From: a virus
IMG/VR virus record: IMGVR_UViG_3300036826_000647
Span: 1-25,382 of that record
DNA: 25,382 nt
Reading direction: 5' to 3' (one strand)
In this document: one piece after another, positions 776 to 24,292 of the stretch
Layout of the letters: each line of letters opens with the position of its first letter
Position numbering within the stretch: the first letter of the stretch is position 1
Made by a program: the position numbers and the translations under genes
Notes under the pieces: model-generated
Databases searched by the model: none
Told to the model about the DNA's origin: nothing
What the model saw: only the letters and a program-made list of their open reading frames with translations

Positions 776-1102
776 TTAATTTCTGTGAATTTCTTTGCTG
801 ATTGCTTCGATTAATAATGTATTCAAACTAATTCCGCGATATTTAGCTTCTATTGCTGCTTCTTTATGAATTTCAGGGGGCAGTCTAAGCATAAGATTTC
901 CAGAGAAAGGCTTTTCGGGGGATTTTTTAATCTTTTCACAAAATTCTAGGTAATCATCGATGGAGTCCTTGAAAGCTTGTTCTAATTGATCAACACTATA
1001 ACCTTGAAAAGTGATTACATCTTTTAATCCAATTACTTCTCCGTGAAAAACCTTGGCTTCGTCATCATAAATAGCCGTTCCTTGATATCCTTTATACTTC
1101 AT
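776..1102 (-). CDS. hicB: HicB-family antitoxin
   Basis: The 108-aa protein has the HicB layout. A degraded RNase H-like fold occupies about residues 1-65 (GYQGTAIYDDEAKVFHGEV, then a helix VDQLEQAFKDSIDDYLEFC). A ribbon-helix-helix DNA-binding part lies at about 70-105 (GNLMLRLPPEIHKEAAIEA, then GISLNTLLIEAISKEI). By family knowledge the first domain binds and blocks HicA, and the second binds the operator upstream of hicA. The start codon overlaps the hicA stop (ATGA), with TGGAG seven bases upstream, so the two are translationally coupled. The toxin-first order is normal for hicAB. In a phage this pair could act in superinfection exclusion or genome maintenance; that role is inferred. Confidence 0.9.
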   Translation of the reverse strand: MKYKGYQGTAIYDDEAKVFHGEVIGLKDVITFQGYSVDQLEQAFKDSIDDYLEFCEKIKKSPEKPFSGNLMLRLPPEIHKEAAIEAKYRGISLNTLLIEAISKEIHRN

Positions 1103-1353
1103 AGTTTTACTCCAGCACTTACTAAAAATTTTCTCACCGAAATTAAAGCTCCCTTATCTGTTTCTTTTCTAGGGTGGGGTCGATGAAAAACTGCAACTTG
1201 ATCATTAAGGTATATTCTAACTCTGGATCCTCTTCCTTCTTCTACAATCGCCCCCAATCCAATAAATAAAGTCTCAATATCTTTCCATTTTATATTAGAT
1301 AAAATGGGTTCATGAAAAATGGCTTTAAGCGTTGAAAGATGCTTATTTCTCAT
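1099..1353 (-). CDS. hicA: HicA-family toxin
   Basis: The 84-aa protein starts at the ATG at 1353 (MRNKHLSTLKAIF). A longer frame exists from a TTG at 1389, but the M-x-x-KH-x-x-TL start is typical of this HicA subfamily and the promoter lies just upstream. The fold is double-stranded-RNA-binding-like: helix IKWKDIETLFIGLGA, strands EEGRGSRVRIYLND and QVAVFHRPHPRKETDKGAL, then helix VRKFLVSAGVKL. Well-studied HicA toxins cleave mRNA using a histidine just after a Gly-Ser. Here that place reads GSR, as I recall it does across this subfamily, with histidines instead in HRPHP. The gene overlaps hicB by 4 bases. There is no SD, and the -10 box is 7 bases upstream of the ATG. Confidence 0.9.
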   Translation of the reverse strand: MRNKHLSTLKAIFHEPILSNIKWKDIETLFIGLGAIVEEGRGSRVRIYLNDQVAVFHRPHPRKETDKGALISVRKFLVSAGVKL

Positions 1354-1357
1354 ATTT

Positions 1358-1389
1358 GGTATGATACTAAATAACGATACCAATGGCAA
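1358..1389 (-). promoter_or_regulatory. hicA promoter and putative HicB operator
   Basis: Reading the minus strand, TTGCCA (1389-1384), a 17-base spacer and TATCAT (1366-1361) form a strong sigma70-type promoter. Seven bases separate the -10 box from the hicA ATG, so the transcript is predicted to begin at or next to the start codon (leaderless). An inverted repeat, GGTAT (1358-1362) and ATACC (1377-1381) with a 14-base centre, overlaps the -10 box and spacer. It is a natural site for autorepression by the HicB ribbon-helix-helix domain. Confidence 0.65.
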
Positions 1390-1405: not shown

Positions 1406-1478
1406 TGCTGGTGAAAGGACTTGAACCCTCAACAATCCGATTACAAGTCGGGTACTCTACCAATTGAGTTACGCCAGC
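1406..1478 (-). tRNA. tRNA-Thr (anticodon TGT)
   Basis: The minus strand folds into a complete 73-nt cloverleaf. The acceptor is GCTGGCG with CACCAGC plus discriminator A; the D arm is ACTC/GAGT around AATTGGTA; the anticodon loop is CTTGTAA; the T arm is GAGGG/CCTTT around TTCAAGT. The anticodon TGT reads Thr ACA codons, which are frequent in the phage fibre genes. There are two C-A mismatches (position 6-67 in the acceptor and 27-43 at the base of the anticodon stem). The 3' CCA is not encoded. It lies 52 bases upstream of hicA on the same strand. Confidence 0.93.
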
Positions 1479-4427: not shown

Positions 4428-4911
4428 TCCTGTAAATAGTCTTGGACCATTCATTGCAACAAGCACATTTTTCCCTGAAAATTTTGAAGAATTTAGAGTT
4501 AAATTTCTTGAGTTATATAGAGATTTAGCAAATACCGTTAATACTCGTGAAGTAGGTATCTTTGATTTGCAGGAATTTCTAACAGGTGAGCAGTGGTTCA
4601 CAGTCGGTAATCCACAAGTCAAAAGGAGAACATATCGTAAATCGTTTGTTTTAGCTGCAACAGTTGCTGGTGCGACTACTGTTATTCCTCATGGAATTAC
4701 AGGAGTAAATACCACGACTACTTTCACGCATATATATGGTACATGTCTTACAGCAGTTCCCGATAATAGACCGATTCCTTATGCCTCGGTTACGAATGTG
4801 AATCAACAAATCGAAATCAATGTAGATGCAACTAATATTAATGTGATTAATGGAACTGCGGCGCCAAATATCACGAGTGGGATTGTGGTATTGGAGTATT
4901 TGAAGAATTAA
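4417..4911 (+). CDS. Virion structural protein, fibre/needle-like (164 aa)
   Basis: An SD (TAGGA) lies six bases before the ATG, which sits inside the end of the nozzle gene. The N-terminal half is helical with the motif FEEFRVKFLELYRDLANTVN, followed by TREVGIFDLQEFLTGEQWF, a pattern I associate with phage tail-tip or fibre-attachment proteins. After an RRTYRK basic patch the rest is beta-rich (IPHGITGVNTTTTFTHIYG) and looks like a small receptor-type sandwich. The organisation parallels the 199-aa gene: helical anchor, then beta tip. It ends in a 4-base convergent overlap with the endonuclease-like gene. The precise role is unknown. Confidence 0.5.
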   Translation: MTFNPVNSLGPFIATSTFFPENFEEFRVKFLELYRDLANTVNTREVGIFDLQEFLTGEQWFTVGNPQVKRRTYRKSFVLAATVAGATTVIPHGITGVNTTTTFTHIYGTCLTAVPDNRPIPYASVTNVNQQIEINVDATNINVINGTAAPNITSGIVVLEYLKN

Positions 4912-6059
4912 TTTCTTATTCTTTTAATATTATTAATGCTATTTATTCTATATTTTATACAAGTCCAACTGACATTATATTTTTTTGCTATTTCTGAAAT
5001 AGTCATTTCAGATTTTAAACAATTCCTTATTTCATTATTCGAAATTCCTGAACGATCATAAAATTCTCGTTTTTTTATTCCAAATTTTTTAAAAAGATAA
5101 GAAATCGCATTTGATGATACTCCAAATTCATTTTTAATTTCCTCTAAAGAAGCACCCTCTTTATATATTTTTTTTATTTTATCAAGATCATTAGATGTCA
5201 AATTATTAATAAAATACCAAGTTTTTCGAGGCATTTCTAAAGCTTTCTTATATGATACATTATATTTTTTAACTCTCATTCTTAATCCAGATTTAGAAAT
5301 ATTTTTTTCCTCTCTTAATTCATTTAATTTTCTTTTTCTTCCATTATAACTAATATATATACCTTGTTTTTTGGCAATTGATGATCTAAATTCTTCATTA
5401 GTAATTATTATGCAATTTTCAGGATTAAACTGTTTTTTTCCTTCTTTTAATATAATGACTTTACTTTCTTCCCAATTATGGCTAATTGCCCATTCATACA
5501 TATTTCTTCCATCATTTCTCCATAAATCGCAAACATTATAACCTTTTTTACCAAATTTTTTATAACTTGGATGTTTTGGATTATAACATTTATGAATTAG
5601 CATTGAGCGACATTGATAAAAATTATTCTGTGATGTTGTTAAAAAGCTTTGTTTTGGATAAAGAGAAGGATTTACCCATTTGGATTTTAACTTTCGTCCT
5701 AAACAGCCACAACTCATTGAATGTCTTGGCCTTTTTAAAGAATTATCTGCGACTATTCTTTCTATTCCACATTCGCATCTGCAATGCCATTGGGTTTTCC
5801 CTCTTTTATCTGGAGGAGCTCTTCCTATTACAGTCCATCTATAAAAAATTTTTCCAGTTAAATCAATTATTCTGCGCTCTTTAGTACAATGCGTACATTC
5901 AAATAAAGATCCTTTTTTAAATCGTGTATTCCAACATTTAAAAATTCTTTGACAGTCGCATATACATTCCCATATCGTATGTCCAAATCTTTTTTCTATA
6001 AATTTTAGAACTACGGCTCTTCCAATTCTTTTATTAATCAGCTCTTCAAGGTTAATCAT
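4908..6059 (-). CDS. Free-standing homing-endonuclease-like protein with two zinc ribbons
   Basis: The 383-aa protein has two N-terminal zinc-ribbon-like units: C32, C34/C36, C55, C58, and C93, C95/C97, C117, C119 (WHCRCECG, then SCGC). The second follows LTGKIFYRWTVIG, a typical start of AP2/HNH-type phage endonucleases. Residues about 147-235 resemble the nuclease core usually written MxxRCYNP...YGGRGI.VC.RW (here KCYNPKHPSYKKFGKKGYNV, then CDLWR), ending FNPENCIIITNEEF. The C-terminal 130 residues carry three helix-turn-helix-like units (LEEIKNEFGVSSNAISYLF; ISEIAKKYNVSWTCIKYRI). It sits antisense between virion genes, is richer in Lys/Ile than they are, and has no strong SD. It is probably a mobile intron-less homing gene; whether it is still catalytic is uncertain. 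Confidence 0.65.
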   Translation of the reverse strand: MINLEELINKRIGRAVVLKFIEKRFGHTIWECICDCQRIFKCWNTRFKKGSLFECTHCTKERRIIDLTGKIFYRWTVIGRAPPDKRGKTQWHCRCECGIERIVADNSLKRPRHSMSCGCLGRKLKSKWVNPSLYPKQSFLTTSQNNFYQCRSMLIHKCYNPKHPSYKKFGKKGYNVCDLWRNDGRNMYEWAISHNWEESKVIILKEGKKQFNPENCIIITNEEFRSSIAKKQGIYISYNGRKRKLNELREEKNISKSGLRMRVKKYNVSYKKALEMPRKTWYFINNLTSNDLDKIKKIYKEGASLEEIKNEFGVSSNAISYLFKKFGIKKREFYDRSGISNNEIRNCLKSEMTISEIAKKYNVSWTCIKYRINSINNIKRIRN

Positions 6060-6729: not shown

Positions 6730-7746
6730 ATGCCACAAGTACAAATATTAGAAGGTGTTCCAAGCTTTGGACAAAAATTAGGAAGAGGGTTGGGGAGTGG
6801 AATTAGCCAAGGATTGACTCAGTCTTTAGAAGAGTTTCATAAAAAAAGACAATTAGAATTAGAAACAAATAAATTTCAAAAACTTGGATATCCAGAGCCA
6901 CTTGCCCGTTTAGCTGCAGGTGCCACCGTAGGAGGTAAAACCGAAGTTCTTAAAGAAGTGTTAGATGAATTCAAACGAGGAAATCTAGGACAATTTCCAA
7001 TTAATAACCAAAATATTCAAGATACTCCTGAACGAGTGGAAGATAATGAAATTCAATCTGCAATTCAAAAATCTAGACTTCAAGATCAAGGATTAACGGC
7101 AAAAGAAAAAATAGCAAGATCAGCGGAAAGGTATAAAACAGGATTGCCCGTCTTTCAGGAAGCAGGAACAAAATTAAGAGGAATGAGTCGTGATAAAGAA
7201 CGTATTCAAATTTTAGATAACTTAAATGAATCTAAAAGGCTTCCTCATGATTTTGGAAGATTGAACGTTGATAAAGATGGAAATCTACACTTCGCTTTTG
7301 CAACTACTCCTGAAGCTCAAAGATTTGTAAAAACATTGAACGAATTTTCAGCCGGAGCTAAAGATACATTTGGTTCCCGTGTAACAAATTTTGACTTACA
7401 GCAATACCTTCAAAGATTTCCCACTCTTCTTAATTCTGAGGAAGGGAGAAGACAAATTTTGCAGCAAATGAAAATAGTAAACGATATTAATTCTATTTAT
7501 TATAAAAATTTGAAAAAAGTTTATGATTCTGCGGGTGGCGTAAGAAATATTGATTCAGATGTGGCTGAGTCTATAGCTGAAAAACGATCTGAAAACGAAA
7601 TTGATAAATTATCTAAAAAATTTGATACGATTGGTCAATTTACGACTCTTCCAGATCCTTCAAAAATGAAAGGAGCTACTTTTATTGATGATGAAACTGG
7701 AGAAAAATTAAGAAGCGACGGAAAAAATTGGATACCGGTAAACTAA
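6730..7746 (+). CDS. Probable internal virion (ejection) protein (338 aa)
   Basis: The protein is mainly helical and charged. It opens with a Gly-rich amphipathic segment (FGQKLGRGLGSGISQGLTQS), then helical stretches with many Lys/Glu/Gln, and a small C-terminal beta motif (GATFIDDETGEKLRSDGKNW) of the kind found at the ends of structural proteins. It is flanked directly by the 193-aa and 430-aa genes (spacing 3 and 0 bases), so the three probably form one translation unit. An ejection-protein role is inferred from composition and position. A scaffold or minor tail protein cannot be excluded. Confidence 0.45.
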   Translation: MPQVQILEGVPSFGQKLGRGLGSGISQGLTQSLEEFHKKRQLELETNKFQKLGYPEPLARLAAGATVGGKTEVLKEVLDEFKRGNLGQFPINNQNIQDTPERVEDNEIQSAIQKSRLQDQGLTAKEKIARSAERYKTGLPVFQEAGTKLRGMSRDKERIQILDNLNESKRLPHDFGRLNVDKDGNLHFAFATTPEAQRFVKTLNEFSAGAKDTFGSRVTNFDLQQYLQRFPTLLNSEEGRRQILQQMKIVNDINSIYYKNLKKVYDSAGGVRNIDSDVAESIAEKRSENEIDKLSKKFDTIGQFTTLPDPSKMKGATFIDDETGEKLRSDGKNWIPVN

Positions 7747-9039
7747 ATGGCTTATCGATTACTAGAAGAAGAAAAATCAGATAAAAATATTCCCAAACAG
7801 ATCGGTCAAGAATTAGTAAGAACTCCTGCTCGTACTGCGTCCAATTTAGTTACACGCGGAATTGGATTACCAGGTGATGTTTTATCATTAGTAAATGAAC
7901 TAGCAGCACGTCCTATTACAAAAGCTCTAACTGGAAAAAAAACTCTCCCTTATGAAGAAACTTTTTTGGGAAAAGCCATTCCAACGACTCAAACACATAG
8001 AAAAGGAATTGAATCTGTAACTGGTGATTTTTTAAAACCAAAAAATAAGATTGAGGAATTTACGGATAACCTTATTGAAGATACAGCTTTAATGTTAATT
8101 CCTGGAGGAAAACTTGGAAAAGCCCAAGAAGGTCTTTCAAAAGTTCAACAGTTAATTAAACAAGTTCCATCTAGTTTTTTTAAATCTTTAGGCGCTAATC
8201 TTACTGGAGAAGTAGCAAAACAATTTTCTGGAGACAGAGAGGATGTTGGTAACTTAGCAAAAGTCGGTGCTTTTTTTGCGCTTTCTTTATTCGATAAGGG
8301 TAGATCAACTAAATATATTTCTGATTTATACCAACAAGCTGAAAAAAATTTACCTAAAAATGCTACAACTTCTGCTGAAAATTTATCCAAAAATCTAGAA
8401 ACATTGGAAAATTCTATTACTAAAGCAAGACCCGTAGAAAATTTAGCAGATTCAGAAAAATTTGTATTAAATTCAATAGATAAAACTCGTAGTTTAATCA
8501 AAGATGGAAAAATAAACATTGGACAAGCATGGGCTCAAAAAAGAAGTTTCAATGAAGAACTTACAAAAAAACTGTACGAAATCCCTGGTAAAGAAGGACA
8601 ACATAGGGCTCGTAAATTAGCCAAACAAGTAAATCATTGGTTAAATAACGTTATAGAAAATTATGGAGAAAAAAACCCTGAATTTTATAAACCTTATAAA
8701 AATGCTGAAGAAGGATTTGGTACAATTGCACAATCCAATTTTATTTCCAGATTTATAGAAAATAATCTTAAATATTCCCCATTAACAGCTGGTTTATTGC
8801 ATATTTTTGGAGCTCCTATTGGCGCAGCAGCTGCAAAAAGTGTTATACCATATCAAGTAGGGAAAATAGGATACCGTATTTGGAATTCTCCAACTCTTAG
8901 AAATCATTATTTAAATGCTGTAAAAGCTGCTTCTAAGGAAAATATTAGTATTTTTACTAAAGAATTAAAAAAATTAGATGAAAAACTTCAAGAAGAAGAA
9001 AATGTACCTAAATATAGATTTTTAGGCTATGAGAATTAA
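7747..9039 (+). CDS. Probable internal virion protein with hydrophobic segments (430 aa)
   Basis: The ATG immediately follows the preceding stop. The N-terminal third has the pattern GQELVRTPARTASNLVTRGI, followed by GLPGDVLSLVNELAA, seen in proteins that phages deliver with their DNA. The middle is a long Lys/Glu-rich helical region (LSKNLETLENSITKARPVEN). About residues 345-375 include a hydrophobic segment (LTAGLLHIFGAPIGAAAAKS) that could span or insert in a membrane. A Lys/Glu-rich coiled tail ends the protein. The three genes from 6145 to 9039 resemble an ejectosome set by size order and composition; no enzymatic domain was seen. The stop codon overlaps the end of the convergent 25-aa ORF. 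Confidence 0.45.
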   Translation: MAYRLLEEEKSDKNIPKQIGQELVRTPARTASNLVTRGIGLPGDVLSLVNELAARPITKALTGKKTLPYEETFLGKAIPTTQTHRKGIESVTGDFLKPKNKIEEFTDNLIEDTALMLIPGGKLGKAQEGLSKVQQLIKQVPSSFFKSLGANLTGEVAKQFSGDREDVGNLAKVGAFFALSLFDKGRSTKYISDLYQQAEKNLPKNATTSAENLSKNLETLENSITKARPVENLADSEKFVLNSIDKTRSLIKDGKINIGQAWAQKRSFNEELTKKLYEIPGKEGQHRARKLAKQVNHWLNNVIENYGEKNPEFYKPYKNAEEGFGTIAQSNFISRFIENNLKYSPLTAGLLHIFGAPIGAAAAKSVIPYQVGKIGYRIWNSPTLRNHYLNAVKAASKENISIFTKELKKLDEKLQEEENVPKYRFLGYEN

Positions 9040-9113
9040 AGATCACCTTTATCTATTGAACTAATAAACCAAATAATTCCTAAAATTGCTGAAATTCCAT
9101 ATATGTATGTCAT
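9036..9113 (-). CDS. Tiny membrane protein (25 aa), last of the minus-strand micro-operon
   Basis: The frame encodes MTYIYGISAILGIIWFISSI plus a charged end (DKGDL), a single hydrophobic helix with the charged tail after it. The start codon overlaps the stop of the 75-aa gene (TAATG), with AAAGGA six bases before the ATG, so the translation signals are good for such a short frame. The stop overlaps the convergent 430-aa gene. Function is unknown; single-helix phage peptides can act in lysis timing or membrane exclusion. Confidence 0.5.
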   Translation of the reverse strand: MTYIYGISAILGIIWFISSIDKGDL

Positions 9114-9127
9114 TATTTATCCTTTAT
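9111..9127 (-). repeat. 17-bp stop-start repeat, copy 1
   Basis: The 17 bases CATTATTTATCCTTTAT (+ strand) occur here and at 9475-9491. Each copy spans the last codons (IKDK-stop) of one gene, an SD (AAAGGA) and the TAATG start of a tiny hydrophobic ORF. Confidence 0.85.
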
Positions 9128-9340
9128 TTTTCCGTGAGTTCCAGTATCTTTAGATTCATAGCGATCCCTTTCATCGAATCTAATTTCTACTCTAGTCAAA
9201 CGAACATCTATAGATTTTAACTCTTGTTTAATTTCTTTAAGCTCTGTTTTTAGATTTCTAGAAAATAGCCATACTATAACAAGAATGCTCAAAATGTTTT
9301 GAATATCAAAGCCTTGTAAAAATTGTATGATTTGATCCAT
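9113..9340 (-). CDS. Small membrane protein with coiled coil (75 aa)
   Basis: AAGGAAA five bases before the ATG supports this start. Residues about 12-27 form one membrane helix (IQNILSILVIVWLF). They are followed by a charged heptad-like helix (LKEIKQELKSIDVRLTRVEI) and a polar tail ending GTHGKIKDK. The C-terminal half resembles that of the 69-aa gene at 24083-24292 (RRDLRSLDSRISRIEG and GTHDK), so the two are probably paralogues. The layout (one helix, then coiled coil) is like XhlA-type or Rz-like lysis accessory proteins, but no specific family is recognised. It lies in the alphaCTD-like micro-operon and its stop overlaps the next start. Confidence 0.7.
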   Translation of the reverse strand: MDQIIQFLQGFDIQNILSILVIVWLFSRNLKTELKEIKQELKSIDVRLTRVEIRFDERDRYESKDTGTHGKIKDK

Positions 9341-9351
9341 ATATTTTCCTT

Positions 9352-9411
9352 TTAACTATAAATCCCGACAAGAACAACCAAAATAAAAAGTCCTAACCAT
9401 ATACCGAACAT
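9352..9411 (-). CDS. Tiny hydrophobic ORF (19 aa)
   Basis: MFGIWLGLFILVVLVGIYS is almost entirely a membrane helix. It lies between the 18-aa and 75-aa ORFs on the same strand, 9 bases after the former's stop. No SD is visible, so translation would depend on re-initiation from the ORF upstream. It is listed because all small frames in this operon are hydrophobic; alone it would not be convincing. Confidence 0.35.
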   Translation of the reverse strand: MFGIWLGLFILVVLVGIYS

Positions 9412-9420
9412 TTTTATCGT

Positions 9421-9477
9421 CTATATTAAAGTACAAAATGCCCAAATACAAACTATTGCTAAAAGTAGTGTCGACAT
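9421..9477 (-). CDS. Tiny hydrophobic ORF (18 aa) coupled to the alphaCTD-like gene
   Basis: MSTLLLAIVCIWAFCTLI is one hydrophobic helix with two cysteines. Its ATG overlaps the stop of the alphaCTD-like gene (TAATG), with AAAGGA six bases before. The same signal occurs before the 25-aa ORF, within a 17-base repeat, which makes accidental occurrence less likely. Function is unknown. Confidence 0.45.
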   Translation of the reverse strand: MSTLLLAIVCIWAFCTLI

Positions 9478-9491
9478 TATTTATCCTTTAT
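9475..9491 (-). repeat. 17-bp stop-start repeat, copy 2
   Basis: This is identical to 9111-9127. It covers the end of the alphaCTD-like gene (IKDK-stop), its SD and the TAATG start of the 18-aa ORF. The repeat suggests duplication of a gene-end/tiny-ORF unit. Confidence 0.85.
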
Positions 9492-9869
9492 AAGTTCTTC
9501 AATCTCACTTTCTAAAAATTCTATTTCTTGTTTAGCTTTTATAATTCTTTTGGTTCTATTATCAATACTTTTCTTTAATCTTTCAAGCCTTAATTCATTA
9601 GGAGATTTATGAACTTTTGAAGAAATTAAAGAAATATTTAATGGTGAATTTTCAAATTTAGGATGTTTTTTTAATTTTCTTTGAATTTCTTTTAAAGATT
9701 GAATTCCAAAATTTCTGCATCTTAACAAACGAGCAACAGAAGTATTTAAAAGATCTTCAATTGTAATAATATCGGACCAACCAGCTAAACTATTACATAT
9801 TCTTGTGGATAAACCAAATTCTTTTAATTCATTTACAATTTCAGGTTGATTCATCTTTTCGTTTTCCAT
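9477..9869 (-). CDS. Stand-alone RNA polymerase alphaCTD-like protein with C-terminal coiled coil
   Basis: Residues about 13-69 read like the C-terminal domain of bacterial RNA polymerase alpha: FGLSTRICNSL, then TIEDLLN, then RCRNFGIQSLKEIQRKLK. Against E. coli alpha, the DNA-contact positions R265, N268, G296 and S299 correspond to R23, N26, G55 and S58, all kept; K298 is Gln here. A few extra residues (AGWSDI) lie after the first helix. Residues 90-130 are a Lys/Glu-rich coiled coil (RIIKAKQEIEFLESEIEELI) in place of the alpha N-terminal domain. The ATG at 9869 has GGAG eight bases upstream, inside the overlapping 38-aa ORF. The protein could bind UP-element-like DNA or contact sigma or activators and so redirect host polymerase; that is inference. 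A generic helix-hairpin-helix DNA-binding protein is the alternative. Confidence 0.75.
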   Translation of the reverse strand: MENEKMNQPEIVNELKEFGLSTRICNSLAGWSDIITIEDLLNTSVARLLRCRNFGIQSLKEIQRKLKKHPKFENSPLNISLISSKVHKSPNELRLERLKKSIDNRTKRIIKAKQEIEFLESEIEELIKDK

Positions 9870-9957
9870 GTGGAATACTCCAATAAATTCCCCATCCTAT
9901 TATACAAATTGCAAAAATAATAGGAAACCAAATGCTGAAAAAGAATTTCAAAAACAT
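9841..9957 (-). CDS. Small membrane protein (38 aa), first gene of the micro-operon
   Basis: A perfect SD (AGGAGG, five bases before the ATG) and a promoter upstream support this short gene. It encodes a single hydrophobic helix (FFFSIWFPIIFAICIIGWGI) and a charged tail HGKRKDEST. Its 3' end overlaps the alphaCTD-like start by 29 bases, so the two are probably coupled. The best translation signal in the operon belongs to this peptide, which argues that it is made in quantity. No family was recognised; a holin-like or membrane-anchor role is possible. Confidence 0.65.
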   Translation of the reverse strand: MFLKFFFSIWFPIIFAICIIGWGIYWSIPHGKRKDEST

Positions 9958-9987
9958 AAATTTCCTCCTTTTACTCTCTATTCTACA

Positions 9988-10015
9988 TTTCTAGTCATCT
10001 CTTTTCAATTGTCAA
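9988..10015 (-). promoter_or_regulatory. Promoter of the minus-strand micro-operon
   Basis: On the minus strand, TTGACA (10015-10010), 16 bases, then TAGAAA (9993-9988). It is followed by a short leader with AGGAGG and the 38-aa ORF. It is divergent from the fibre promoter, with 26 bases between the two -35 boxes. Confidence 0.55.
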
Positions 10016-10101: not shown

Positions 10102-12321
10102 ATGGTACAAAAAATAAGACCACAGGCTGCGACACTTTATGGGTTGCCCCAGCCGACTAATAATCAAAATCCACTACCCATTAAAGCACGTAGAGCACCT
10201 CTAACAACTGACACTGGATACGATCTGGGACAAGTTTGGATTGATATTGTTGGTGGCGACGCTTTTACACTCACTCAAGTTTCTGCCGGCGTTGCAAACT
10301 GGGTAATTTCAGGAGCAAGTTCTGGGCCATTAAATACTCTTACTGGTGATAGCGGAGGAGCGATTTCTCCTGTAGCTGGTAACATCAACCTTTTCGGAAC
10401 AGGAAGCCAAATCGAAACAACAGGTGCAGGAGCGGATATAACATTTAGTATCCCTTTAGCATTTGTAGCTCCGGGAAGTATTGCTTCTACAACAGGTATG
10501 CAAGCGGGTACTACTTTAACTTCCGCTGGTGCTACTACACTTGCAACAACAGGTGCGAGTATCAATACATTTGGTAACGCGACAGGCGCAACTTCTATAA
10601 CGATCACTTCTGGATCGGGTGGTACATCACTTGTTTCTACAAACTCAACGATGTCTCTTGCTTCTGGAACAGGCGCAATGAATATCAGTGCTGATGCTAC
10701 AGCAAACGCTGTAAACGTGGGAACTGGTGCAGGTGCTAAGACAGTTACAATTGGATCGACAAATACTACTTCTACAACAACTCTCCAAGCAGGAACTGGT
10801 GGTTTTGCTTTTACATCTGGTAATGGTGCAATCACAATCAACTCTGGAACAGGAACAATTGGTATTTCAACAGATGCCGCAGCAACTACAGTAAATATAG
10901 CTACTGGCGCAGGTGCTAAAACGGCAACATTTGGATCTACAAATACAACTTCTGCAACGACTGTTCAGTCTGGAACAGGAGCATTGAATATTACTTCTAC
11001 AAATGGTGCTCAAACTCATAATTCCGGAACAGGAGTCATGGGAATCAGCACAGATGCTGCTGCAACAACTGTTAACGTAGCAACTGGTGCTGGCGCAAAA
11101 ACAGCAACGTTTGGATCTACAAATACAACTTCTGCAACAACAGTACAGTCTGGTTCTGGTGCGCTTGCAATTACGGCAACAAATGGAACAATTACTGCTA
11201 ACTCAGGTACAGGAACTATCGGAGTAAGTACAGATGCTACTGCTACAACAGTGAACATTGCAACAGGAGCAGGAGCTAAAACTGCAACCTTCGGTTCTAC
11301 CAACACAACATCAGCAACTGTAGTTGGTTATGGAACAGGAAACTTGAGCATCGATGGCGCAGCTACAGGAAACGTAACGATCGCTCCAAGTGCTACATCA
11401 GGTACATTCAATCTTGGTGGAACAGGTGCTAACACAGGAACTGCTACAATATTTGGTGGGACAGGTGCACAAACAATCAATATTGCCAACTCAACTGGTG
11501 GTAAAACTCTTAACGTAGCAACCGGTGCTGGAGCTAATATCGTTGCTATCGGAAGTACAAACACTACATCTTCTCTTACAGAGAGAGTAGGAACAGGTAA
11601 CTACAGCTTAGATGGTGCTGCAACGTCGACATATACATTCGCTCCAAGTACAACTTCTGGAACGATTAACTTCGGTGGAACAGGTGCTAATACAGGAACA
11701 ATGACGATTGCCGGTGGTACAGGAGCTCAAACAATTAACGTTGCTAACTCAACAGGTGGTAAAACAGTTGCGATCGCTACAGGAGCTGGAGCGAATGCGG
11801 TAACTCTCGGATCAACAAACACAACTTCTGCTACAACAATCAACTCAGGATCAGGCAACTTAACTTTAGTTGGTAACGTTGTTCAAAGTACTAACCCATG
11901 TTTCTTAGAATACTTAGCTGCAACTGCAGTAAATAAAACAGGGGATGGTACTTCTTACACAATAGGTGCTGATGCATTAACTGAAGTATTTGATAGAGGT
12001 GGAAATGCTACTACAGCAGGGGTATTTACTGCTCCTGTTACTGGTATTTACGATTTAAGAGCACAAGTAGCCTTTACTGGTGCAACAATTGCAACAACAT
12101 TTGTGATCAATATCGTAACAACAGCAGCAACTTATACAAAAACATTTATTAAGGCAGCTGGTGCTCAAGATGAAACGATTGATATTAACGTTCTTGCTGA
12201 TATGGCAGCTACCAATACCGCAACAGTAACTGTAGTAGTAAGTGGTGAAGCTGCAGCAACAGTAGATATCTTAGGCGGAGCTACAAGAACAACATATTTC
12301 TGTGGAAGATTAGTAGGATAA
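10102..12321 (+). CDS. Large repetitive fibre/adhesin with C1q-like tip (739 aa)
   Basis: The N-terminal ~75 residues (LTTDTGYDLGQVWIDIVGGD, then AFTLTQVSAGVANWV) resemble a virion-attachment domain seen on phage fibres. Residues ~79-117 hold a module (LTGDSGGAISPVAGNINLFG) shared with the next fibres. The shaft from about residue 209 consists of repeats beginning GAGAKTATFGSTNTTSATT: three of 60 residues, then two of 86, then a partial one. Only small residues are used, as in a beta-helix or triple-beta shaft. Residues ~598-739 form a C1q/TNF-like globular tip (GVFTAPVTGIYDLRAQVAF, end TYFCGRLVG). The role is presumably receptor binding. It is the first gene after a strong promoter, and its GC content is visibly higher than that of the early genes. 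Confidence 0.7.
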   Translation: MVQKIRPQAATLYGLPQPTNNQNPLPIKARRAPLTTDTGYDLGQVWIDIVGGDAFTLTQVSAGVANWVISGASSGPLNTLTGDSGGAISPVAGNINLFGTGSQIETTGAGADITFSIPLAFVAPGSIASTTGMQAGTTLTSAGATTLATTGASINTFGNATGATSITITSGSGGTSLVSTNSTMSLASGTGAMNISADATANAVNVGTGAGAKTVTIGSTNTTSTTTLQAGTGGFAFTSGNGAITINSGTGTIGISTDAAATTVNIATGAGAKTATFGSTNTTSATTVQSGTGALNITSTNGAQTHNSGTGVMGISTDAAATTVNVATGAGAKTATFGSTNTTSATTVQSGSGALAITATNGTITANSGTGTIGVSTDATATTVNIATGAGAKTATFGSTNTTSATVVGYGTGNLSIDGAATGNVTIAPSATSGTFNLGGTGANTGTATIFGGTGAQTINIANSTGGKTLNVATGAGANIVAIGSTNTTSSLTERVGTGNYSLDGAATSTYTFAPSTTSGTINFGGTGANTGTMTIAGGTGAQTINVANSTGGKTVAIATGAGANAVTLGSTNTTSATTINSGSGNLTLVGNVVQSTNPCFLEYLAATAVNKTGDGTSYTIGADALTEVFDRGGNATTAGVFTAPVTGIYDLRAQVAFTGATIATTFVINIVTTAATYTKTFIKAAGAQDETIDINVLADMAATNTATVTVVVSGEAAATVDILGGATRTTYFCGRLVG
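10726..11781 (+). repeat. Fibre shaft repeats: three of 180 bp and two of 258 bp
   Basis: In-frame units start at 10726, 10906, 11086 (60 codons each), 11266 and 11524 (86 codons each); a partial unit follows at 11782. All begin with codons for GAGA(K/N) and contain GSTNTTS. The longer units add the segment GGTGANTGT and TGGKT. DNA identity between adjacent units is high, so unequal recombination could change shaft length. Confidence 0.9.
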
Positions 12322-21638: not shown

Positions 21639-21790
21639 ACTTTAAAAATAGGATTGAATTTAGAAACCGGCTCTGGAGGTGGAAAATACCTTTCCTCTAA
21701 TTTCACTAATATAAAAGCAAGAGTAAAAAAACCTACGAATACGTAAATAATTAGACGAAATCCTTCGTTTTCACGCCAGAGTTTGATCAT
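21635..21790 (-). CDS. Small membrane protein with proline-rich end (51 aa)
   Basis: The ATG overlaps the stop of the 69-aa gene upstream (ATGA), so the two are coupled. After a polar start (MIKLWRENEGFR) comes one membrane helix (LIIYVFVGFFTLAFILVKL), then a short tail with ERYFPPPEPVSKFNP. The pair, a membrane/coiled-coil protein followed by an overlapping short membrane protein with a proline-rich end, is reminiscent of spanin-type lysis pairs. However, there is no lipoprotein signal and no endolysin nearby, so this remains a weak suggestion. Confidence 0.6.
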   Translation of the reverse strand: MIKLWRENEGFRLIIYVFVGFFTLAFILVKLEERYFPPPEPVSKFNPIFKV

Positions 21791-21996
21791 GATTTTCTAC
21801 TTTTTTCAATCTCTAGTAATCGATAATGAAAATCTTTCATTAAATTGATATTCTCCTTGTGAACCTCATGAATTAAATCACGATTCGCTTTTAATTGAAC
21901 ATCCATATGCCGAGAATCAGCTCTCGCTTCAGCTCTTTGCCATAACCACAATCCAAAAACACCTAAGAAAAATATTACAAATTGAACCCACTCCAT
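21787..21996 (-). CDS. Small membrane protein with helical tail (69 aa)
   Basis: AAGGAG five bases before the ATG fixes the start. Residues ~3-20 form a membrane helix (WVQFVIFFLGVFGLWLW), followed by QRAEARADSRH and a charged helix to the end (IHEVHKENINLMKDFHYRLL). It belongs to the same architectural class as the 75-aa and other 69-aa genes, though the residues are not clearly related. It forms a two-gene minus-strand unit inside a plus-strand cluster, arguing for separate acquisition or separate timing. Function is unknown. Confidence 0.65.
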   Translation of the reverse strand: MEWVQFVIFFLGVFGLWLWQRAEARADSRHMDVQLKANRDLIHEVHKENINLMKDFHYRLLEIEKSRKS

Positions 21997-23870: not shown

Positions 23871-23878
23871 AGATTTTA

Positions 23879-23942
23879 CCCTGACTTTACTGAAGGATCA
23901 CGTTATGCGTGATTCATTTATGTAGGTAAGTCGGGGTTTTTT
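23879..23942 (+). terminator. Nested-hairpin intrinsic terminator
   Basis: An outer stem CCCTGACTTTAC (23879-23890) with GTAAGTCGGGG (23926-23936) encloses an inner hairpin ATCACG-TTATG-CGTGAT (23897-23913). TTTTTT (23937-23942) follows. The outer stem needs one G-U pair and one bulge. It closes the plus-strand small-gene operon 8 bases after its last stop. Confidence 0.75.
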
Positions 23943-23958: not shown

Positions 23959-24093
23959 CTATTTAACGACTTTTAACTCTTCTTTGTTGCTTAAACGCTC
24001 ATAGAGTATTTGTAAAATAACTTCTAGAGCATTCACTTTTCCCTCTAGAAAACTAATCCTGCCAGTAAGATCTGATATAACTTTATTTGTCAT
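23959..24093 (-). CDS. Small coiled-coil protein (44 aa)
   Basis: The ATG at 24093 lies inside the end of the 69-aa gene (11-base overlap), with AAGGA four bases upstream. The protein is one heptad-patterned helix (ISDLTGRISFLEGKVNALEV, then ILQILYERL) with a charged end. The RIS..LEG segment echoes SRISRIEG in the upstream gene, so the two might form a mixed coiled coil. No family was recognised. Confidence 0.55.
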   Translation of the reverse strand: MTNKVISDLTGRISFLEGKVNALEVILQILYERLSNKEELKVVK

Positions 24094-24292
24094 GAGTTCC
24101 TTCTCTTTTCATATCCTTAACTTCTAAAATGCCTTCAATTCTAGAGATTCTGCTATCTAAACTTCGAAGATCCCTTCTAACTTCCGTAAAGTTGGATTCT
24201 ATTTTTTCAAACTTTCTATTTAAAATGGTCACAATTGAAATTATGGTGCCCACAGCAGTGCATATAGCTATAACAACATTAGACCAATCCAT
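24083..24292 (-). CDS. Small membrane/coiled-coil protein (69 aa), paralogue of the 75-aa gene
   Basis: AGGGA six bases before the ATG fixes the start. Residues ~5-25 are a membrane helix (NVVIAICTAVGTIISIVTIL). Then comes a charged coil (FEKIESNFTEVRRDLRSLDS, then RISRIEG) and the end KREGTHDK. The coil and the GTH(D/G) end resemble the gene at 9113-9340, pointing to duplication. Both are minus-strand genes placed at boundaries of plus-strand blocks, each overlapping a second small ORF. Function is unknown; anchors for membrane-associated complexes or lysis accessories are possible. Confidence 0.7.
   Translation of the reverse strand: MDWSNVVIAICTAVGTIISIVTILNRKFEKIESNFTEVRRDLRSLDSRISRIEGILEVKDMKREGTHDK

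Follow-up and report, generated by a model that had tools for sequence, protein, structure and literature searches.

A mosaic antisense operon of membrane micropeptides with a putative alpha-CTD-like gene in a tailed phage probably infecting chlamydiae

The virus record IMGVR_UViG_3300036826_000647 (IMG/VR; 25,382 bp, linear), analyzed over its whole length and referred to here as the window, belongs to a tailed phage, with a terminase gene at the right end and plus-strand genes for virion and fibre proteins. Positions 9036-9957 of the minus strand carry a cluster of very small genes led by a 38-residue membrane peptide with the C-terminal motif GIYWSxPHGK. Comparison with related phages indicates that this segment is a mosaic accessory ("moron"-like) operon with a swappable second position, of the known phage small-gene-module kind. 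The leading peptide defines a previously unlisted family; frames of this size are usually missed by gene callers.

All six frames that the original prediction, made from the sequence alone, had assigned to this strand are present, and the five said to contain a membrane helix each have a helix-length hydrophobic stretch by Kyte-Doolittle analysis (best 17-residue means of 2.45, 2.42, 2.75, 1.81, and 2.03 for the 38-, 18-, 19-, 75-, and 25-amino-acid [aa] products, and 0.82 for the remaining 130-aa product). The first gene (9841..9957) encodes the 38-aa transmembrane (TM) micropeptide; the AGGAGG reported before it is part of an AAGGAGG located 6 nt upstream of the start. Its 3' end carries the Shine-Dalgarno sequence (SD; TGGAGT) and ATG (CATGG) of the second gene (9477..9869), which overlaps it by 29 nt and encodes a 130-aa protein similar to the C-terminal domain of the RNA polymerase (RNAP) alpha subunit (alpha-CTD), with the domain at approximately residues 8-68 and a long C-terminal helix at residues 90-129. 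These are followed by an 18-aa single-TM micropeptide (9421..9477; SD AAGGA), a hydrophobic 19-aa frame without an SD (9352..9411), a 75-aa TM and coiled-coil protein of an RLTRVE..ERxxxES family (9113..9340; SD AAGGA), and a 25-aa single-TM micropeptide (9036..9113). The 18- and 25-aa genes both start on the last base of the preceding stop codon (TAATG), that of the alpha-CTD-like gene and that of the 75-aa gene, respectively, and have the 17-nt junction ATAAAGGATAAATAATG in common; with the 130-aa gene, these 1-nt overlaps make up the three overlapping starts that had been described.

The motif of the 38-aa product recurs in peptides encoded at the same slot in three relatives (G030, G004, and G016). 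A DNA pattern for the motif, run across 2.9 million viral contigs, retrieved 18 stretches, most of which are family members; those at L096, L098, L103, L104, and L107 were judged false by context. With a profile search added, the family comprises 16 genes in 15 phage contigs, encoding peptides of 24-38 aa that consist of an uncharged hydrophobic helix, often of the form M-I-W-P...C, followed by GIYWSxPHGK. The family is found in neither Pfam nor PHROGs, and a member used as a tblastn query has no match in 50,697 annotated phages.

A partner family with a TM helix and a coiled coil, xNWEKIGVYIA(TM)..KLEVKVEKLE, directly overlaps the micropeptide gene in 14 of the 16 cases. At the junction, the Trp-Ser codons (TGGAGY) form the SD of the next frame and the His-Gly codons (His-Ala in G019) its start (C-ATG-x); as read from the sequence, the final codons of the leading micropeptide also provide the gene behind it with its ribosome-binding site and start codon. 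The window is one of the two exceptions, with the alpha-CTD-like gene in place of the partner. In the other (G019, contig L071) the partner is a ten-codon remnant (MQNTNWENYK-stop) and the micropeptide frame is still open. Directly after the micropeptide stop in G019, where the partner has been lost, there is a possible 24-aa hydrophobic frame, MSIGVFCFLYGLFFLRFITRLHNR (approximately L071:19180-19260, minus strand). Identity of the overlapping pair with spanins (Rz/Rz1) was considered and rejected, as inspection found no lipobox in the micropeptides. Relatives in which the tiny frames are broken and the larger genes kept had been named as the pattern that would speak against the small genes; the opposite was found, the 38-aa frame being kept in 16 genes on 15 contigs and the larger gene behind it being swapped (window) or broken (G019).

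The 38-aa family appears to be selected as a protein. The comparison of synonymous and nonsynonymous changes proposed in the original prediction gave a nonsynonymous-to-synonymous ratio (pN/pS) of 0.46 over 12 sequences, with synonymous sites near saturation, pointing to selection at the protein level; within the motif, the I-Y-W codons give a ratio of 0.07. All four Pro codons are used for the invariant Pro, and there is synonymous variation in Gly, Tyr, and Ser as well. Mean identity over the 13 residues that precede the motif is just 32%, yet none of the 156 positions there holds a charged or strongly polar residue; under neutral simulation with the same divergence, 16.5 polar positions were expected, with a minimum of 5 in 2000 runs. 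Retention of the motif merely as the start of the next gene is ruled out by the fourfold codon variation of Pro, by the location of GIY upstream of the SD, and by G019. Conservation of a start codon alone is insufficient to account for the selection pattern, and a membrane peptide is therefore the simplest reading.

A regulatory leader, in which GIYWSxPHGK would act on the ribosome (by arrest or coupling) to control the next gene rather than on the membrane, is distinctly unlikely. The conserved block is indeed C-terminal, in most members reaching right up to the stop codon, which would place it in the exit tunnel at termination, and it shares sequence with the SD and start codon of the gene behind it. 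However, the N-terminal half has remained strictly hydrophobic through extensive divergence, the G019 peptide persists without an intact partner, and in the window, G016, G004, and G019 the peptide runs at least two residues beyond the Lys/Arg position of the motif.

The remaining tiny frames were assessed by counting ATG-initiated, SD-preceded open reading frames (ORFs) of 15-45 aa with a TM helix in 18 cassettes (19.8 kb). There are 25 of these, whereas the complementary strand has 0 and shuffled sequences average 0.76; the window cassette contributes 3, compared with 0 opposite to it and 0.04 after dinucleotide shuffling. Several are 16-26 aa long and have a short overlap with the preceding gene, like the 18- and 25-aa frames of the window, and gene junctions are tightly coupled in most cassettes. 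The terminal micro-ORFs of the relatives appear analogous, rather than demonstrably homologous, to the 18- and 25-aa frames; because no convincing common sequence was seen, the 18-, 19-, and 25-aa frames were not pooled with them. Our confidence that the 38-aa gene is real is thus high, and it is moderate for the 18- and 25-aa genes, which are supported by their SDs, their overlaps, and the many analogous (not alignable) peptides in relatives. It is low for the 19-aa frame, which has neither an SD nor a recognized counterpart. That frame fits the notion that the tiny frames arose by chance in AT-rich DNA, leaving the 130- and 75-aa genes as the only real ones; for the 38-aa frame this is contradicted by the conservation, selection, and enrichment results, and as a general explanation it is extremely unlikely.

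The operon occupies a slot bounded by a 430-aa virion-operon gene (7747..9039, plus strand), whose stop codon and that of the convergent 25-aa gene overlap, and by a 739-aa fibre-like gene (10102..12321, plus strand), which is divergent from the operon. The relatives compared are those reached through the terminase (31 viral contigs, 46-77% identity), the virion protein (8 loci), and the DNA pattern for the peptide motif; scans of viral contigs with the 130-, 75-, and 430-aa proteins singly found nothing, nor did a search for relatives at the near-DNA level. By synteny, the slot between the 430-aa gene and the fibre gene contains opposite-strand sets of small genes that differ among relatives; it is conserved and antisense to virion genes in diverse relatives while its content varies, as is characteristic of morons. 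The operon of the window has a promoter-like site, described below, and no intrinsic terminator was found. In G001 and G007 it is filled with tandem TM/coiled-coil arrays, which include relatives of the 75-aa gene and of two outlying genes of the window, and in G269 it is reduced to approximately 300 bp with one 23-aa TM peptide behind AAGGAGG. The slot is usual rather than universal, as the micropeptide adjoins other genes in G045 and G040. The same-slot relative of the 75-aa protein in G001 has 46% identity to it, and further relatives are found in G007 and G033. The outlying genes, both encoding TM and coiled-coil proteins from the same cassette gene pool, are located on the minus strand at 21787..21996 (containing ..MKDFHYRLLEIEKSRKS, with its closest relatives in the G007 cassette) and 24083..24292 (relatives in the G001 cassette; paralogue-like to the 75-aa gene). 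Two TM/coiled-coil proteins used as tblastn queries had no match among the 50,697 annotated phages.

Other predicted DNA-binding genes are found in front of cassettes: HTH_17 genes in G041 (two cassettes), an HNH and HTH_17 combination in G039, and a ribbon-helix-helix-like (RHH-like) gene in G043. A putative DNA-binding gene beside membrane micropeptides thus recurs, and its identity is not fixed. The two G041 cassette copies (L121 and L133), both in one phage genome, occupy separate slots next to fibre genes, and their micropeptide and HTH_17 genes are almost identical. The proposal of a membrane-acting module with its own regulator therefore stands in part: the membrane-micropeptide module is genuine and DNA-binding genes recur, but the alpha-CTD-like gene is not a constant component.

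The alpha-CTD-like assignment itself holds. The 130-aa protein matches Pfam RNA_pol_A_CTD (PF03118) with 46.6 bits against a curated cut-off of 23.8 (E = 2.9e-12), and a second phage copy (L115) scores 59 bits; the best PDB sequence matches of the 130-aa protein are to RNAP alpha. An AlphaFold model based on a two-sequence alignment (mean pLDDT 76.7) shows a helical domain of alpha-CTD type followed by a C-terminal helix of 40 residues. Foldseek ranks the CTDs of RNAP alpha first (TM-score 0.80 by target length, probability 1.00, and an E-value of 0.02 that is weak because the domain is small). In a sequence alignment to the RpoA of a Parachlamydia metagenome-assembled genome (MAG), most positions equivalent to the DNA-contacting "265 determinant" of Escherichia coli are kept (R265, N268, G296, S299, and E302), and C269 and K298 are replaced by Ser and Gln. 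The N-terminal dimerization/assembly domain of full RpoA is absent, the protein comprising a CTD and a C-terminal helix. Exactly one other motif-bearing phage (G043) has an alpha-CTD-like gene (139 aa, with a C-terminal extension, 28% identity), located in one cassette with its micropeptide. Such genes are absent from the 36 first-round relatives and present in 2 of 49 phage records (window included), in each case sharing a cassette with the micropeptide. The 130-aa protein has no tblastn match in the 50,697 annotated phages, and a viral-contig scan with the two-member alignment found nothing. No literature match to alpha-CTD-like phage proteins was found in a search that mostly excluded subscription papers.

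The hosts are probably Chlamydiota (environmental chlamydiae). In a scan of 84,980 species genomes, the only cellular contig with a close terminase (69%) is a 39.8-kb contig in a Parachlamydia MAG. Phage-sized contigs are present in two further Chlamydiota genomes (36.5 and 35.5 kb), where the terminases are at 50% and 48%. Binning errors are possible for such contigs; these are three independent cases, and Chlamydiota are therefore the likely hosts. One ORF of the relatives also matches the C-terminal domain of chlamydial Pgp3 (E = 5.6e-5). The phage-sized contigs of the family in the three Chlamydiota bins are L111 (G037:C388), G208:C1, and G269:C102. None of 232 Chlamydiota genomes contains the motif; the family is therefore not a resident prophage gene there, and a prophage origin in Chlamydiota was rejected. 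An N4-gp56 capsid model matches relatives, which suggests a group of podovirus-like phages of chlamydiae. To our knowledge, the cultured chlamydia phages are small single-stranded DNA microviruses; the literature search, again with subscription papers mostly outside it, found no match to tailed phages of chlamydiae.

We favor, with a probability of about 0.5, a role in early modification of the membrane (superinfection exclusion or host takeover) combined with a DNA-binding alpha-CTD mimic. The operon, lying on the opposite strand, would probably have its own host-type promoter and be expressed early, ahead of late transcription. The peptides would insert into the host inner membrane and alter it to the benefit of the phage, with exclusion of superinfecting phages or takeover of the host as the most likely outcome. 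Such a role is suggested by the variability, tandem paralogy, and antisense placement of the cassettes and would explain their rapid turnover; the tandem paralogues in G001, G007, and G042 in particular fit exclusion or arms-race functions. The alpha-CTD-like protein, with most DNA-contacting residues kept, would occupy AT-rich upstream promoter DNA or bind RNAP partners, either diverting host transcription or autoregulating the cassette, and its long C-terminal helix may serve in oligomerization.

Several observations weigh against this interpretation. A candidate sigma-70-like promoter (TTGAAA-17-TAGAAT; 10/12 matches) is located just upstream of the operon at 9980..10008 on the minus strand, but promoter-like sites are not above shuffle expectation in this AT-rich DNA (4 found versus 7.1 expected), and a statistical claim for it was dropped; the sites upstream of cassettes also vary among relatives. 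In profile and tblastn searches, none of the cassette genes matched a homologue with a known function at the membrane. The alpha-CTD position is not conserved, so the regulator and the membrane parts need not cooperate. Membrane sequestration of the regulator, one of the mechanisms first proposed, is disfavored as a general mechanism because most cassettes have no alpha-CTD-like gene (2 of 49 records carry one) and several have no recognizable regulator.

The absence of a recognizable endolysin in two relatives of near-complete length also makes a role in lysis possible. The micropeptides and TM/coiled-coil proteins would then be holins, antiholins, or pinholin-like disruptors, and membrane disruption without a classical endolysin may suffice in peptidoglycan-poor chlamydial hosts. 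No lysozyme, amidase, or other lysis family was detected at E ≤ 0.001 in 71 ORFs of these relatives (38-40 kb), separate scans of the terminase and the two large ORFs were likewise negative, and there is no endolysin gene in the window cassette or its flanks; the small single-TM peptides are pinholin-like in size, and the hosts are probably Chlamydiota. However, the cassette lies on the strand opposite to the late genes, and it varies between a single peptide (G269) and at least five TM/coiled-coil genes (G001) with no universal component, unlike an essential lysis set; no holin family gave a significant match, as far as the PHROG matches listed for the relatives go. We regard lysis as the main rival to the favored reading, though somewhat unlikely. 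The 75-aa protein resembles XhlA and small holin-type proteins in having one TM helix and a coiled coil in less than 100 aa; its TM helix is N-terminal, whereas that of XhlA is C-terminal, and the XhlA/holin profiles gave no match above cut-off (PHROG hemolysin E = 0.039 for the 75-aa protein; Pfam XhlA E = 0.027 for the coil of the 130-aa protein). An unlikely extension is that tailed chlamydia phages carry an endolysin-independent membrane-attack or exclusion operon of swappable micropeptide genes, in which the 24-38 aa peptide would act in the membrane and also serve as a portable translation-start module, and that one version captured the host RNAP alpha-CTD, linking host transcription to membrane remodeling.

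It is also conceivable, though very unlikely, that the peptides are type I toxin-like or anti-defence peptides that depolarize the membrane and so arrest or modulate the host. The 18-25 aa single hydrophobic helices resemble IbsC, TisB, and the small hydrophobic type I toxin TimP (PMC7667032) in size and composition. In contrast to those systems, the genes here form coupled multi-gene operons with strong SDs rather than repressed solo transcripts, and no antisense RNA family was found, the RNA scan giving only a tRNA and an unrelated small RNA family.

Further parallels are found in other phages. Like the 26-gene host-takeover cluster of phage SPO1 (PMC6873191) and morons in general, the cassette is an independent, variable cluster of very small genes apart from the core and could plausibly reshape the host; it differs in consisting mostly of membrane micropeptides, in its conserved overlapping leader, in its antisense placement within the virion region, and in host group. 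Phage factors that act on or around the RNAP alpha-CTD include P2 Ogr, G1 Gp67, and the phiKMV-type Rac (PMC7552054), and T7 Gp5.7 is a small promoter-binding protein that acts at host-RNAP promoters (PMC5569994). The 130-aa protein may likewise be aimed at transcription that depends on the alpha-CTD or on promoter DNA; unlike these factors, it is itself alpha-CTD-like with a long C-terminal helix, rather than a binder, a cleaver, or a winged-helix protein. Both it and the micropeptides are testable candidates, for a phage-borne copy of the RNAP alpha-CTD and for membrane-level control of infection. Conservation, rather than ORF reading alone, identifies frames of approximately 20-40 aa that standard annotation drops as real phage genes; the family has a diagnostic, directly searchable motif, and it points to a large group of chlamydia-associated tailed phages.

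Other accessory elements were noted in these phages. A relative (L049) carries, antisense within its head-gene region, genes for a signal-peptide beta-barrel-like protein (6816-7873, plus strand; weak OMP_b-brl match) and for a further protein that looks secreted. In the window, a HicAB-like pair is located between virion genes at 776-1389 (minus strand), comprising a HicB-like antitoxin (PHROG E = 1.7e-36) and a protein of a PHROG toxin family (E = 1.5e-23), and is adjoined by a tRNA-Thr (TGT) at 1406-1478 (minus strand). A DUF3800-VIII RNA (Rfam RF03075, a small RNA family; 49 bits) is found at 23875-23940 (plus strand), shortly upstream of the terminase. Another accessory insertion, antisense between two virion genes at 4908-6059 (minus strand), encodes an HNH-endonuclease-like protein of 383 aa (PHROG E = 5.6e-36) that also has helix-turn-helix matches at its C terminus.

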